A DNA stretch of 64,000 bases from Kiloniella litopenaei (GTDB lineage: Bacteria; Pseudomonadota; Alphaproteobacteria; Kiloniellales; Kiloniellaceae). A model generated the notes under the pieces. That model was given only the letters and a program-made list of their open reading frames with translations, made no database searches and had not been told where the DNA came from. Positions within the stretch are counted from its first letter, which is position 1. Every line of letters starts with the position of its first letter. Position numbers and translations under genes: made by a program. Shown one piece after another: positions 43,308-50,798 of this stretch. Location of the stretch: contig NZ_LANI01000005.1 of the NCBI RefSeq assembly GCF_000982415.1, forward strand, positions 1 through 64,000. Reading direction: 5' to 3'.

Positions 43308-44024
43308 TTGATCATGTTTTATAAAATATTTTCCTTAAAATCCTTAATGACGGCTATGTTTTTTGCCGCGTTTATTTTAACGGGACAACTCATCGCAAGT
43401 GATCACGCTGCCTTAGCCGACACAAAGACAGAAACACCCCCTGCGGAGAAAACAAGCGGTCTGGATGGGCTATCCCCTGATGAAGTATCAATTGTTCGTC
43501 GTGTCGAATCTTATCTTAACGACCTGAAATCAGTCTCGGCACGGTTCATTCAAATTTCCAGCAATGGTAGTCTAGCCGAGGGAAACGTTAACATTCAACG
43601 TCCGGGAAGGATGCGTTTTGAATATGACGAACCCGTGCCAATCGTCATGATCGCAAACGGAGTCACCCTGCTCTATTTCGATAAAAAATTAAAACAATCG
43701 ACTTATTTGCCCCTATGGAAAACACCCTTGTGGTTTCTAATTCGCGAAAAGGTCGAGCTTCATAAGGACATCCAAATCCTTCGCGCACAGGAATCTGACA
43801 GTACAATTCAACTGGAAATAAGAGCCGAAGGTGAATCCGACGGCACACAGATGACATTGTTATTTAGTGATAACCCAATATCTCTGCGAAAGTGGGAAGT
43901 AGTTGATGCACAAGGCATTACAACACAGGTGTCGCTTGTTAACCCTGTTTATGATGCGTCGATTGACGAGGCTGTGTTCAAAACAGATGATCTGGATATG
44001 AAAAAGAAAAAAATAGGCGACTAA
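43308..44024 (+). CDS. lolA: Outer-membrane lipoprotein carrier protein LolA-like
   Basis: The protein is a 238-residue periplasmic chaperone that carries lipoproteins from the inner-membrane LolCDE complex to the outer membrane. A signal peptide (about 1-37, ending AALA-DTK) leads to the LolA fold: YLNDLKSVSARFIQISSNG, RPGRMRFEYDEPVPIVMIAN, DKKLKQSTYLPLWKTPLWFL. AGGA seven bases ahead supports the TTG at 43308 as start; the ATG at 43314 is the alternative. It follows ftsK after 85 bp and its 3' end overlaps the convergent hydroxylase-family gene by 4 bases. Confidence 0.93.
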   Translation: MIMFYKIFSLKSLMTAMFFAAFILTGQLIASDHAALADTKTETPPAEKTSGLDGLSPDEVSIVRRVESYLNDLKSVSARFIQISSNGSLAEGNVNIQRPGRMRFEYDEPVPIVMIANGVTLLYFDKKLKQSTYLPLWKTPLWFLIREKVELHKDIQILRAQESDSTIQLEIRAEGESDGTQMTLLFSDNPISLRKWEVVDAQGITTQVSLVNPVYDASIDEAVFKTDDLDMKKKKIGD

Positions 44025-44985: not shown

Positions 44986-45753
44986 ATGGCCAATCCAACA
45001 TTATCACCAGTACTTCCCATCGTCGGTGTATCAGCATGCCTCTATAAAGCAGAAACACCTAAACCCTATCATGCCGTCGACGATAAATATCTACGCGCCG
45101 TAGCCACATCATCAAATACAATGCCTGTGATCATTCCAGCATTACCTGATCTATTGGATATTCCACGTCTGGTTTCCAAACTTGATGGCATAATGCTGAC
45201 CGGAAGCGCCAGTAACGTACACCCCAAACGTTATAGAGCATCGCCCTCTCCAGAGGCTGAGCCCTATGACGAAATGCGGGACCAGACAACTTTTGCCTTA
45301 ATCAAAGAAGCCATTAATCAGGAAGTCCCCCTTTTAGCTATCTGTCGCGGGTTTCAAGAGCTTAATGTCGCCTTAGGTGGCAGTTTATATCCACAGGTCA
45401 AAGAGATCGCAGACCGCATGGATCATAGCAGCCCAGACACAAACAATATGGAAATTGACTACGGGCCAAATCATTCAATTACGCTTGACCGAAATGGCCG
45501 ATTGTATGAGATCCTGAAAAAAGACGATGCGATGGTAAATTCATTACACTATCAGGCGGTCAACAAACTCGGGGATGGTCTCATGGCCGATGCAACCGCA
45601 AAAGACGGAACGATAGAAGCCATTTCCATGCCTGGACAAAAGTCTTTTGTTCTCGGTGTTCAATGGCACCCGGAATACAAAGCAAGTGAAAATAGCACAT
45701 CACAAGCTATCTTCAGGGCTTTTGGAAAAGCCGTGATTAACAGGATACAATAG
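44986..45753 (+). CDS. Gamma-glutamyl-GABA hydrolase-like class I glutamine amidotransferase (peptidase C26)
   Basis: The 255-residue protein has the PuuD-type fold: VGVSACLYKAE at the start, GIMLTGSASNVHPKRY, the nucleophile elbow LLAICRGFQELNVALGG (Cys120) and the catalytic His and Glu in QWHPEY (His228, Glu230). Family members hydrolyse gamma-glutamyl bonds, for example gamma-glutamyl-GABA in putrescine breakdown. No other putrescine gene is nearby, so the substrate is inferred only from the family. It is followed by a 500-bp non-coding region with a candidate small RNA. Confidence 0.9.
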   Translation: MANPTLSPVLPIVGVSACLYKAETPKPYHAVDDKYLRAVATSSNTMPVIIPALPDLLDIPRLVSKLDGIMLTGSASNVHPKRYRASPSPEAEPYDEMRDQTTFALIKEAINQEVPLLAICRGFQELNVALGGSLYPQVKEIADRMDHSSPDTNNMEIDYGPNHSITLDRNGRLYEILKKDDAMVNSLHYQAVNKLGDGLMADATAKDGTIEAISMPGQKSFVLGVQWHPEYKASENSTSQAIFRAFGKAVINRIQ

Positions 45754-45884
45754 ATCATCTTTTCTTCGGCGCAGTTACTCCCCCCAAAAGATCATAGTTT
45801 CCGTGGAGTCCCTTGACCTATACCCAATTTAATCAGCGTTTTTCTGCACAAATAAGGATAATATTCTCTAAAATACAAAAAATC

Positions 45885-45920
45885 TGTGAATAAAAACCTA
45901 TAACTTAAATTTTATCCACA
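45885..45920. promoter_or_regulatory. Pair of DnaA boxes in opposite orientation
   Basis: TGTGAATAA (45885-45893) and TTATCCACA (45912-45920) both fit TTATNCACA, the first on the minus strand. They are separated by 18 AT-rich bases and lie about 40 bp upstream of the candidate small RNA start. This is too few boxes for an origin; it could be a DnaA-regulated promoter or titration site. Confidence 0.45.
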
Positions 45921-45926
45921 GGTTCA

Positions 45927-45954
45927 TTGAAATCCCCACTAGATGGCTTATCTT
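45927..45954 (+). promoter_or_regulatory. Promoter of the candidate small RNA
   Basis: TTGAAA (45927-45932) and TATCTT (45949-45954) are spaced by 16 bp. This predicts a start at about 45961, exactly the first base of the first hairpin. Confidence 0.5.
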
Positions 45955-45960
45955 AGAATC

Positions 45961-46085
45961 ACGTCGCCTCCTACCTCACTCCTGGCGACGTTAAAGGAAC
46001 TGGAATCCCCCCTCTGGTTCCTTGAAACTCTGCGAAGAAGCGGGAACACCTGGTTATCCCCCCAATCAGGTGTTCCTTTCTTTTA
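45961..46085 (+). ncRNA. Candidate small RNA with three C-rich-loop hairpins
   Basis: The roughly 125-nt region folds into three hairpins. Hairpin 1 is ACGTCGCC/GGCGACGT with loop TCCTACCTCACTCCT. Hairpin 2 has an 11-bp stem (AAGGAACTGGA pairing with TCTGGTTCCTT) and loop ATCCCCCC. Hairpin 3 has a 13-bp stem (GGAACACCTGGTT with AATCAGGTGTTCC), the same loop ATCCCCCC, and the following TTTCTTTT makes it an intrinsic terminator. A promoter lies directly upstream. No open frame covers it. Pyrimidine loops of this kind can pair with GGGGG or GGAGG in ribosome-binding sites, or bind a protein. Confidence 0.7.
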
Positions 46086-46253
46086 TTCCTTAGATCTATG
46101 TGTTAAAGTATCTTAGGAATAAAATTAACATTATTTGATTAAAGCATTTAACACTCGTTTCGCCTCAGAAACAAAAACCTATTAAACATTCCATATTCGA
46201 AACAAATTCATAACGATAGTGGAATGAAATCATTTCGCGTATGGAATAAATAA

Positions 46254-47051
46254 ATGTCACTTCGTATTGCTACCTGGAACATCAACTCGATCAGACAGCG
46301 TTTGGGGCACCTCAAAGATTTCACAGATAGCCATGGTCCAGATGTTCTATGTCTTCAAGAAACAAAAGTACAAGACAGCGAATTCCCCTTATCCGATTTA
46401 GAATCAATGGGTTATGAAGAGGTATTTTTCCACGGGCAAAAAAGTTATAATGGCGTTGCGATCTTGTGCAAAAAAGCAGTTCAAAGCCATCAGAAAATTG
46501 TCTGGTGTAACAAGGATGACCGAAGGCACCTGTCCGTCACACTGAATAATGGCCTGGAAGTTCATAATTTTTATGTACCATCAGGTGGCCCCATTCCGGA
46601 TCCGGAACAAAATGACAAATTTGCCCATAAAATCCAGTTCCTCAAAGAAATGGCAAAGTGGGTCAAAAATCCAGATATAAAAGATAAAAAATTAATCCTT
46701 GTTGGCGACCTTAACGTTGCCCCCTTGGAAAAGGATGTCTGGAACCATAAGAAGCTGTTGAAATCAGTTGGTCACACACCTTTGGAAAGTGACCTTATGG
46801 CAGGGCTAAGACAATCAGGCGATTTAATCGATGTCGGCCGTCACTTTGTCCCGGATGATCAACCGCTCTATAGCTGGTGGGGCTATCGCTACAAACCATC
46901 CTTTGAAAAAGATTACGGATGGCGGTTGGATCACATACTTGCAACCCAAAGTTTGAAACCTGCTTTAAAAAAGTTCGAAATTGTCAGACACACCCGCGGC
47001 TGGGAAAAACCCTCTGACCACGTTCCAAATGTCGTCGATATTGATGTCTGA
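46254..47051 (+). CDS. xthA: Exodeoxyribonuclease III
   Basis: The base-excision-repair AP endonuclease and 3'-phosphodiesterase has 265 residues, as usual. Catalytic motifs are all present: ATWNINSIRQRL, LQETKVQD (metal-binding Glu36), FYVPSGGPIPD, LVGDLNVAPLEKDVW (Asp-Asn pair), WWGYRYKPSFEKDYGWRLDH and the terminal SDHVPNVVDI. In Alphaproteobacteria it often lies near ftsK and lolA, as here. It converges on the cyclic-nucleotide-binding gene. Confidence 0.96.
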   Translation: MSLRIATWNINSIRQRLGHLKDFTDSHGPDVLCLQETKVQDSEFPLSDLESMGYEEVFFHGQKSYNGVAILCKKAVQSHQKIVWCNKDDRRHLSVTLNNGLEVHNFYVPSGGPIPDPEQNDKFAHKIQFLKEMAKWVKNPDIKDKKLILVGDLNVAPLEKDVWNHKKLLKSVGHTPLESDLMAGLRQSGDLIDVGRHFVPDDQPLYSWWGYRYKPSFEKDYGWRLDHILATQSLKPALKKFEIVRHTRGWEKPSDHVPNVVDIDV

Positions 47052-47718: not shown

Positions 47719-50436
47719 CTATTCATCATCAATAAGACTTTTTAAAACTTTTCCATCTTTGTTCAGCTCTTCAAAACGGCCGCTTTCAACAACTTTTCCA
47801 TTTTGCATTACAATGACATATTCGAAATGCTGCGACAAACTGGCTCTTTGCAATGTCCAACAAACACCTCGATTTTCCTGCGCTTCCATAATAGACGGAA
47901 CCAGCCTGTTTTGACTCTGTGAATCCATAACCGCTGCTGCTTCATTCAGGATCAATAAATCAGGTCGTTTGATCAGCGATCGCGCCAATGCCAGCTTTTG
48001 TCGCTGAACGCTGCTTAGACGGTTACCTGCAATACCAACATTAAATTCCAGGCCAACTTCAATAACTTCTGACCTTAGCCCCAAATCATCCAAAAGCTCT
48101 GTCATGACGCGCCCTATTGTTGCGCCAGCTTCCGCACGACCATAGGCCAAACGACCAAACAATATATTATCCTGAATACTAGCTGCTGAGTTATAATTGT
48201 CCGGATCATAAAACTCGACTGCGTCCGGGTCACGGCTTTCCAGTTTCTCTGCAAAAATCTTACGGGCCCTTAAGATTTTTGCCTCGACATCTTTGGTTAC
48301 AAGCCCAAGACGATGACGGGCCTCGACATAATCAAAAGGCAAATACATCAAAGCTTCCCGATCAGAATCAGATATATCGGCAAAGCTGCTTTTATCAGCT
48401 CTTTTCACTATTTTATCGAACTCGGGCAAATCATCTGCAGATATAAAACTAAACTGCTCAAAGAACTGATGAGACGGTGGCAATCCCATAAAAAGTTCAA
48501 CCATCGTACGGGCAATGGACAAACCCATATTATAAATACTGTCCCGCAGGTCTGCTTCTTCAACTGCCTCGCGCAAAACCGGCATCGCCAAAAGGTTATT
48601 TCCCGCATACTGCTTTTTACGGGGTGTTCCAAATAAAAGGTTTTCGCGCAAAGTCGCGTTATTATTGTATTTCTCGGGATCAAAAGCGATTACAAGATCT
48701 TCATCGCCTGTGGATTTAAGGTGCTCCTTTAACGCTATCCTTGCCCCAAGGATGCTTTCAGCAATGTCTGGTCGATTTTCACTATCAACGATGCCACTTA
48801 GTCCGAATAAATAAACATCTTCTTCAAAATCAACGGCACGCAATACCTCTGTAACCCGAGGCACCAATTCCGCCGGATCATTAATCCCCGCAGAAACAAA
48901 GTCGACCCATTCACCATCAGGGTTGAGCGCAATGTTTCCAGTCCGCAGGGCTTCTTGCTTTTCGCGTTGATATTCAGCCTCGGAATGAGAAAGCAGGGAT
49001 GAATCTTTGATCATCCAGTTCCGTAACCCATAAAAAAGGTTGTCCATAACCGACAAGGGAAATAGATAAGCCTCAGAACTAACATAGGAAATTCGACGTC
49101 CGGTTATGGCAGAAGGCAATTGAGCCATTGATTTGCCCCCTATCTTCATCGACCCCGAAGACGATTTAACCAAATTGGCAAGAAGCAACCCCAGATATTC
49201 CTTTCCACTGCTGGCGTTGCCAACAACGGCAATTTTCTTATCAACACCAACACTGAAAGTGATACCGTCTAGAAGTTTGTTCTCATTTTCATCAACCAGA
49301 CAAAGGTTGCTTGCAACAATATCCCCTTCCAGTGGCGGGCTATGCTTTTCTTCAAGTCGTTGCATTTCTGCATCGATCATACCATTTGGCTGGAACTGTT
49401 CAGCAACCTGCTCGTACTTGATTTGAACATCATTTCGTTGCTGATCCCAGTTAATGAGATCTTTGATCGGCGGGGGTAAATCCTTATAAGCTGCAAGAAC
49501 CGCCACAAGGGTACCGATTTCAAACTGTCCGGTTATTACCAAATATCCACCGCCAAGATAAAAGATAAAAGGTGTTATTTGCGCCAACAAGTTGTTCAGA
49601 AACTTAACAAAAAACTTTCTCTGATAAATTTCATATCGAATTTTGAAAATCTTGCCCAGCCGGCTTGATATCTCGGCACGCTCATAGTTGCTGGTATCAT
49701 GGGCCTGAATTTCAACGGCACCTTCGACCAATTCACTAACGCGACCAGCCAACGCCCGTGCTGTCATCTGCCGTTGGCGACCAAGGTCGAGAATACGTCG
49801 CCGCAGTTTGGGAATCAAAAAAGCCTGCACCAATACGATGCTCATGGCCACAATGCCCAACCACACGTTCTGGACCATAATAAAAATCAAGGCCGTTAAG
49901 GCTTGGCCGCCTAAAAAGACGGGGGTAACAATGGCATCACCGATAAAGCCGCCCAAAGGTTCGACTTCATCCTTAAGCATTGTTGCAATCTCTGCCTGCT
50001 TGACCCGTCGGCTGTGCATAACTGGAAACCGGAGAATACGATCAGTCAATTCAAACCGTAGCCTGCGGAGCATTCGCTCCCCTAGCTGACCTTTTAACGT
50101 ATTGATTACAAACTTGAATAGACCGTTGACAAGTACCAACCCCAAAAAGGAAAAACACAATGCAAACAGTAAAGAGATTTGTGTTAAATCAAACCCCTCA
50201 AACAACACCACCGGCTGACCAAAGATTGCTTCCCCAAAGGGAAGGTCAAACCGCATGAAAGACAAAGTTGAATTAATGTCAGAAAAATTTTGAGAGTCGA
50301 CAGCCCGGTTTATTATGCTTTTTGGTAAATCCAATGACAGAAAGTAAAAAGGCATTGAAGCAAGTACCAGGAACAAAATTTTAATCTGGTCTGCTTTACT
50401 GTGCTTCCAAATATACTTAAAAAGTCGTTGCTCCAT
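47719..50436 (-). CDS. ABC exporter-like protein with degenerate, expanded nucleotide-binding domain
   Basis: Residues 1-340 are a type I exporter membrane domain with about six helices. The nucleotide-binding domain (about 370-905) is about 290 residues too long. Every catalytic motif is altered: Walker A GNASSGKE (406-413, Glu for Ser/Thr), no Q-loop Gln (YVSSEAYLF), signature LSSVQ (807-811), Walker B LLILNEA with Asn831 for Asp, and Gln863 where the H-loop His belongs. The segment after the Q-loop is reiterated: VMDNLFYG (463-470), ATLRENLLFG (594-603) and ASIQDNILFG (752-761), the last two each at the end of a repeat of about 62 residues (542-603, 698-761). It is probably not an ordinary ATPase. 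Divergent from the glycosyltransferase cluster. Confidence 0.9.
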   Translation of the reverse strand: MEQRLFKYIWKHSKADQIKILFLVLASMPFYFLSLDLPKSIINRAVDSQNFSDINSTLSFMRFDLPFGEAIFGQPVVLFEGFDLTQISLLFALCFSFLGLVLVNGLFKFVINTLKGQLGERMLRRLRFELTDRILRFPVMHSRRVKQAEIATMLKDEVEPLGGFIGDAIVTPVFLGGQALTALIFIMVQNVWLGIVAMSIVLVQAFLIPKLRRRILDLGRQRQMTARALAGRVSELVEGAVEIQAHDTSNYERAEISSRLGKIFKIRYEIYQRKFFVKFLNNLLAQITPFIFYLGGGYLVITGQFEIGTLVAVLAAYKDLPPPIKDLINWDQQRNDVQIKYEQVAEQFQPNGMIDAEMQRLEEKHSPPLEGDIVASNLCLVDENENKLLDGITFSVGVDKKIAVVGNASSGKEYLGLLLANLVKSSSGSMKIGGKSMAQLPSAITGRRISYVSSEAYLFPLSVMDNLFYGLRNWMIKDSSLLSHSEAEYQREKQEALRTGNIALNPDGEWVDFVSAGINDPAELVPRVTEVLRAVDFEEDVYLFGLSGIVDSENRPDIAESILGARIALKEHLKSTGDEDLVIAFDPEKYNNNATLRENLLFGTPRKKQYAGNNLLAMPVLREAVEEADLRDSIYNMGLSIARTMVELFMGLPPSHQFFEQFSFISADDLPEFDKIVKRADKSSFADISDSDREALMYLPFDYVEARHRLGLVTKDVEAKILRARKIFAEKLESRDPDAVEFYDPDNYNSAASIQDNILFGRLAYGRAEAGATIGRVMTELLDDLGLRSEVIEVGLEFNVGIAGNRLSSVQRQKLALARSLIKRPDLLILNEAAAVMDSQSQNRLVPSIMEAQENRGVCWTLQRASLSQHFEYVIVMQNGKVVESGRFEELNKDGKVLKSLIDDE

Positions 50437-50798
50437 AGTGCCCCTAATCCCCCGCAGCCGTCCTTTAAAAGTTTAATTGCAGCCATTACATCTGTATTTC
50501 AAGTGGTTACAGGATAAAATAAGATTTTTTCCGGTAAACCGTCCACAAATTTTAATGTGCGACAACGATTAGCCTATCCGAAGTCACAACAGAGGTAAAC
50601 TCGAAGAGCATAAACTGATTGTTATCCAACGTGTCTCTCCTAATTAATAACTCTACAGTATTATAAAGAACGCAGTGCACCGGGGATGTGATTATGTCAT
50701 GCCAAATAGAAAATTTTTTTAGAACATATAGTTACACATAATCCATGCGATATTTATCACAAAAAAACTGGTAAAATACTCTTTGGCTATATTCTTTC
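50437..50798. other. Divergent promoter region of the ABC and glycosyltransferase genes
   Basis: The 362-bp gap is AT-rich and must hold promoters in both directions. Only short dyads are seen (CGGTAAACCG near 50536). I found no open frame, RNA gene or clear operator. Confidence 0.4.

Follow-up and report, generated by a model that had tools for sequence, protein, structure and literature searches.

The lolA-xthA interval and its predicted RNA gene

The window analysed here, a 64,000-nt stretch of Kiloniella DNA, carries the gene order ftsK, lolA, a fatty-acid hydroxylase gene (opposite strand), a C26 peptidase/GATase gene, an RNA gene and xthA. The syntenic flanks are lolA (43308-44024, + strand; Pfam LolA, E 1.2e-25) and the exodeoxyribonuclease III gene xthA (46254-47051, + strand), homologues of which occur class-wide. 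The GATase gene (44986-45753, + strand) separates lolA from the RNA in many genomes. The RNA gene at 45961-46085 (+ strand) is a predicted member of the RusT family of small RNAs, with a predicted transcript of ~125 nt, identified from its fold, a conserved island and three covariance models (R1-R3). The minimum free energy of this segment is -52 kcal/mol, compared with -28.4 ± 3.0 kcal/mol for shuffled sequences (n = 200; z -7.8), and 0/200 shuffles were equally stable.

The predicted transcript is organized as a series of stem-loops (SL). SL1 (45961-45991, + strand) has an 8-bp stem and a 15-nt pyrimidine loop, UCCUACCUCACUCCU (45969-45983), and SL2 (45994-46023, + strand) has an 11-bp stem with the loop AUCCCCCC (46005-46012). 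These are followed by an invariant linker, CUCUGCGAAGAA (46028-46039, + strand), which could fold into a 3-bp hairpin capped by GCGA, and by SL4 (46042-46085, + strand), a 14-bp terminator hairpin with a second AUCCCCCC loop (46056-46063) and the tail UUUCUUUU. In the minimum free energy fold of the Kiloniella RNA, the linker pairs with the tail, not with itself. In transcript numbering, the SL2 loop spans nt 45-52; nt 68-79 make up the linker, and nt 82-117 the terminator. The initial annotation had described three stable hairpins of 8, 11 and 13 bp; their number and the first two sizes hold, the third stem has 14 bp, and the small fourth element (linker or stem-loop 3) was absent from that description. 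The predicted sigma-70-type promoter, TTGAAA-N16-TATCTT (45927-45954, + strand), and the matched terminator were recovered by promoter and terminator scans, the latter calling an intrinsic terminator at 46042-46077, and the promoter is kept throughout Kiloniella. The identical octaloops on two stems are likewise present in SL2 and SL4 for Kiloniella; in Caulobacter the C-rich loop occurs only in SL2. Because the octaloop word was seen four times in the 64-kb window with 2.2 occurrences expected, the word by itself is unremarkable, and it is the fixation of the loop that is remarkable.

Contrary to the initial description of a gap with no open frame, a 57-aa frame (45943-46116, + strand) traverses the RNA. 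Comparison of the eight species indicates that this frame probably arose by chance, and we rejected it as a gene: two species lack its ATG, and insertions of 1 nt throw four of the eight out of frame. The RNA is also flanked by two genes on the same strand, so that it might be read as an xthA leader or as the trailing terminator of the GATase gene. This reading is very unlikely, given that the element has its own conserved promoter island, that its intrinsic terminator lies about 170 nt upstream of xthA, and that several genomes retain the RNA even though their xthA is kilobases off or they lack the GATase gene.

Two conserved motifs lie upstream of the predicted RNA. A perfect DnaA-box-like 9-mer, TTATCCACA (45912-45920, + strand), ends six bases before the -35 element and is found in 8/8 Kiloniella sequences; any role in replication-linked control would be suggested by its likeness to a DnaA box. 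The window holds three such 9-mers versus 0.55 expected. A second, shorter conserved block, AAAAGATCATAGTTTCCGTGGAGTC (45786-45810, + strand), is found downstream of the GATase gene, at about -175 to -151 relative to the RNA, and 12 of its 25 positions are invariant in the eight species.

Conservation and covariation from genus to class

The RNA is present in seven further Kiloniella genomes, giving eight species with the window. Across these species, a conserved island from -50 to +125 shows a mean identity of 94-99% per 25-nt block, versus 42-83% in the flanking blocks. The SL2 loop is identical in all eight congeners; the exact SL4 octaloop occurs in 6/8, and the other two have AAUCCCCCC and ACCCCCCC (one each). 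SL1 is retained within Kiloniella and differs in other genera. In the sister genus (g4), which lacks the DnaA-box-like 9-mer, both loops read UCCCCCC, the linker CUCUGCGAAGAA is unchanged, and stem pairs change together, for example from G-C to A-U and from A-U to G-C.

A covariance model built from related genomes had been proposed as a check in the initial annotation. Such a model finds the RNA across the order, with near-fixed loops and compensatory changes in the stems: with a cut-off of E ≤ 1, R1 recovered it from 49 of 58 relatives, and from 43 of the 47 good-quality genomes. One match from the first homologue search (L013) was discarded as chance similarity within coding DNA. Among 17 order-level sequences, UCCCCUGCC in SL2 and CCCCCCGAC in the terminator are invariant, and two-sided changes are seen in 8/22 base pairs, including five of the seven SL2 pairs. 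Elsewhere in the order, a 4-bp hairpin of the CUCC-N4-GGAG type replaces the 3-bp linker hairpin of Kiloniella, and this counterpart of SL3 shows compensatory changes in the wider family. In one genome (G025) the RNA occurs twice, as near-identical copies (L052 and L053) at both ends of a single 4.62-Mb contig, and the xthA beside one of them reads as two fragments.

The class was searched with R2, a covariance model made from the 17 order sequences and holding no gene-context information. It matched in 36 of 385 genomes sampled from the class. Of the 25 R2 loci fetched from outside the order, 23 have ftsK, lolA, the GATase gene, the fatty-acid hydroxylase gene or xthA no more than about 1.5 kb away, and nearly all copies of the RNA are located between ftsK-lolA(-GATase) and xthA. 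Paramagnetospirillum kuznetsovii and Azospirillum brasilense are among the species with the RNA; a Tepidamorphus and a Hyphomicrobiales metagenome-assembled genome gave weaker matches. RNAs of the same plan were also seen upstream of xthA in other families (L095, L106, L112, L116, L120, L127, L129 and L132), with SL2 loops of AUCCCCUCCC, UUCCCCUGCC or similar and a terminator; several of them directly follow lolA.

Class-level counts were taken from a model-fitted alignment because MAFFT misplaces the hairpins between families. In this alignment (n = 42), whose fitting to the structure biases the covariation figures towards that structure, two-sided changes occur in 18/22 pairs, versus 8 to 10 after a one-column shift of the 3' partners, and 94.7% of cells are paired, versus 78.5% after shuffling. 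The C-rich loops are nearly fixed across the 42 diverse sequences. These patterns uphold the earlier proposal of a ~125-nt RNA of the trans-acting type, with its own promoter and terminator and with the C-rich loops as its conserved part, as the stems covary and the loops do not. A search of Rfam 15 with the window and 34 related loci gave no family above the gathering threshold for the RNA, the sole match being one tRNA in the window; matches at permissive E values were dismissed as chance.

Relationship to RusT of Caulobacter crescentus

RusT (CCNA_R0199) of Caulobacter crescentus was reported in 2024 as a 118-nt, Hfq-dependent sRNA of iron starvation, encoded in the lolA-xth intergenic region and folding into four stem-loops, the last of which is the terminator (PMC11005374). 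Its seed (nt 45-57) lies in SL2 and includes C53, the base that pairs with targets; the Hfq-binding SL3 comprises nt 72-87, and homologues have been published from Caulobacteraceae only (PMC11005374). The Kiloniella RNA is very probably the RusT orthologue in a conserved lolA-xthA interval, as judged by computation, and the initial label "undescribed" no longer fits in view of its locus, plan, seed loop and the covariance search. We hold it to be the orthologue because the address, the landmarks and the model scores agree; the scores alone would be insufficient.

Caulobacter genomes were located through an Hfq 100% identical to chain 6gwk_A, which we take to be the Hfq of C. crescentus, and the lolA-xth interval was then read. 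The record itself carries no rusT name, and the locus was assigned by Hfq identity, by the lolA-xth address and by the published landmarks. One start site in this Caulobacter-genus locus fits C53, SL3 at nt 72-87 and the length of 118 nt: C53 is the first C of UAUCCCCUCC in loop 2, nt 72-87 correspond to GAGAGACUAGACUUUC, and the RNA ends after five U at nt 118.

In the window, the predicted RNA has the same address and orientation between lolA and xthA, shared by its relatives. Both RNAs are ~118-125 nt long with their own promoter and a plan of four stem-loops closed by a terminator, of which SL1, SL2 and SL4 are strong in Kiloniella, and the Kiloniella genome also encodes Hfq. The C-rich SL2 loop falls at about nt 45-57 in both (AUCCCCCC at nt 45-52 in Kiloniella versus UAUCCCCUCC around nt 53 in Caulobacter), making it the counterpart of the RusT seed loop, and a small element follows at about nt 70-85. 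Unlike RusT, the Kiloniella RNA repeats AUCCCCCC as its terminator loop and has a 15-nt pyrimidine loop in SL1. The setting differs as well, with few TonB-dependent receptors in the genome, the DnaA-box-like motif upstream, and lolA separated from the RNA by the GATase gene.

R3, a covariance model made without Caulobacteraceae, hit the RNA in most loci of that family; the best E was 5e-4 and the others 0.002-0.3, several of them at 0.03-0.3. Matches within the genus Caulobacter were marginal (E 0.01-0.3), and two Caulobacter loci (L218 and L221) were not recovered at E ≤ 1. In the same run, R3 gave no match in the Rhizobiales, Sphingomonas or Rhodobacteraceae loci.

C-rich anti-Shine-Dalgarno loops are common among alphaproteobacterial sRNAs. 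The CcsR1-4 ("cuckoo") RNAs of Rhodobacter and NfeR1/alpha-r14 of rhizobia, for example, carry C-rich hairpin loops in several copies, for which pairing to G-rich ribosome-binding sites has been proposed; they differ from the window RNA in their loci and loop words. An independent sRNA of this kind could occupy the lolA-xthA gap and resemble RusT by convergence, and the variation of SL1 between genera would be in keeping with that, as would the low identity to Caulobacter RusT once the AUCCCC loop is set aside. We consider convergence improbable, since the address, the order of elements and the core of the SL2 loop all remain the same through the intermediates Pelagibius, Magnetospirillum, Azospirillum and Caulobacteraceae, and no Rfam family, the alpha-r families included, matches at the gathering score. 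StsR (RSs0827) of Rhodobacter sphaeroides is, like the RusT type, an Hfq-associated alphaproteobacterial sRNA induced by iron limitation (PMC8307010, PMC3413700). The literature found on StsR does not give its locus or sequence, and R3 has no match in the Rhodobacteraceae loci that were fetched.

The present analysis adds to the published picture of RusT a distribution beyond Caulobacteraceae, evidence of covariation, the lack of a corresponding Rfam family, and a C-rich terminator loop that is fixed in Kiloniella and its order.

Candidate targets and possible mode of action

In C. crescentus, iron limitation relieves repression by NtrX and RusT is made; the RNA, described as induced by iron starvation or zinc, acts with Hfq to repress TonB-dependent receptors and OmpW via the SL2 loop (PMC11005374). 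Extrapolating from these experiments, Hfq would bind the SL3/linker element and the U-rich tail of the Kiloniella RNA, and the linker is by analogy a putative Hfq site, the counterpart of RusT SL3. The C-rich SL2 loop would pair with G-rich sequences around start codons and block translation. By this analogy, the Kiloniella RNA most likely represses mRNAs by Hfq-aided pairing of its C-rich loops to G-rich start regions. The terminator loop, in which the same C-run is repeated in Kiloniella and the order, might conceivably serve as a second seed, and iron or envelope stress might conceivably induce the RNA.

A search for GGGGGAU in leaders, proposed in the initial annotation, yielded one conserved candidate, before an ABC-transporter gene, and none at the starts of Plug-domain genes. 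The candidate site (50447-50453, - strand) lies in the 5' leader of the gene at 47719-50436 (- strand). It reads GGGGGAU in seven of eight Kiloniella species and GGGGGAA in the eighth, within an otherwise divergent leader, and of the window's 48 gene starts it has, narrowly, the strongest predicted duplex (-15.2 kcal/mol; the runner-up reaches -15.0). Three genomes from other families of the order were inspected and lack a recognizable site. It may represent a target site, or else an unusual Shine-Dalgarno sequence, and the transporter gene is at most a tentative target. TonB-dependent receptors, the main targets of RusT, gave no candidate of this kind in Kiloniella, a point against the RusT reading: none of the five Plug-domain genes in the genome has GGGGGAU at its start. 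In the same genome, a FecA-like TonB-dependent receptor gene (L231) has the G-runs CGGGGGUAU and AUGGGGGGC within its first codons and is a possible RusT-type target, judging by these runs. Genome-wide, GGGGGAT-N-ATG matched 163 times versus 27 in a reversed control, which contains stop-codon words and is no fair null.

RNAs that titrate a protein through hairpin loops of similar shape are known, and one loop present in two sequence-fixed copies on rigid stems would suit an RNA that mainly sequesters an RNA-binding protein through its C-rich repeats without base pairing. Such titration is quite unlikely as the main role here: the SL2 loop of C. crescentus pairs with mRNA, where compensatory changes introduced into two targets rescue C53G (PMC11005374), and a GGGGGAU is conserved upstream of a Kiloniella gene.

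Alphaproteobacterial groups other than Caulobacteraceae share the structure and seed of RusT, which puts this RNA forward as a possible member of the small set of trans-acting sRNAs kept broadly across the class. The strong covariation and the fixed address support this broad retention, and a ready Rfam-type model results. Regulation of iron and envelope functions by RusT can now be compared between lineages rich and poor in TonB-dependent receptors. A bolder and rather doubtful proposal is that RusT is among the widely kept alphaproteobacterial sRNAs, that Kiloniella and its order have turned it into a regulator with two seeds, and that in Kiloniella the DnaA-box-like promoter site ties its level to replication. 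Loops of terminator hairpins usually drift, and the fixed one here can be tested directly as a possible second seed; if the proposal is true, the repeated seed in the terminator loop would let one RNA grip two G-rich sites.
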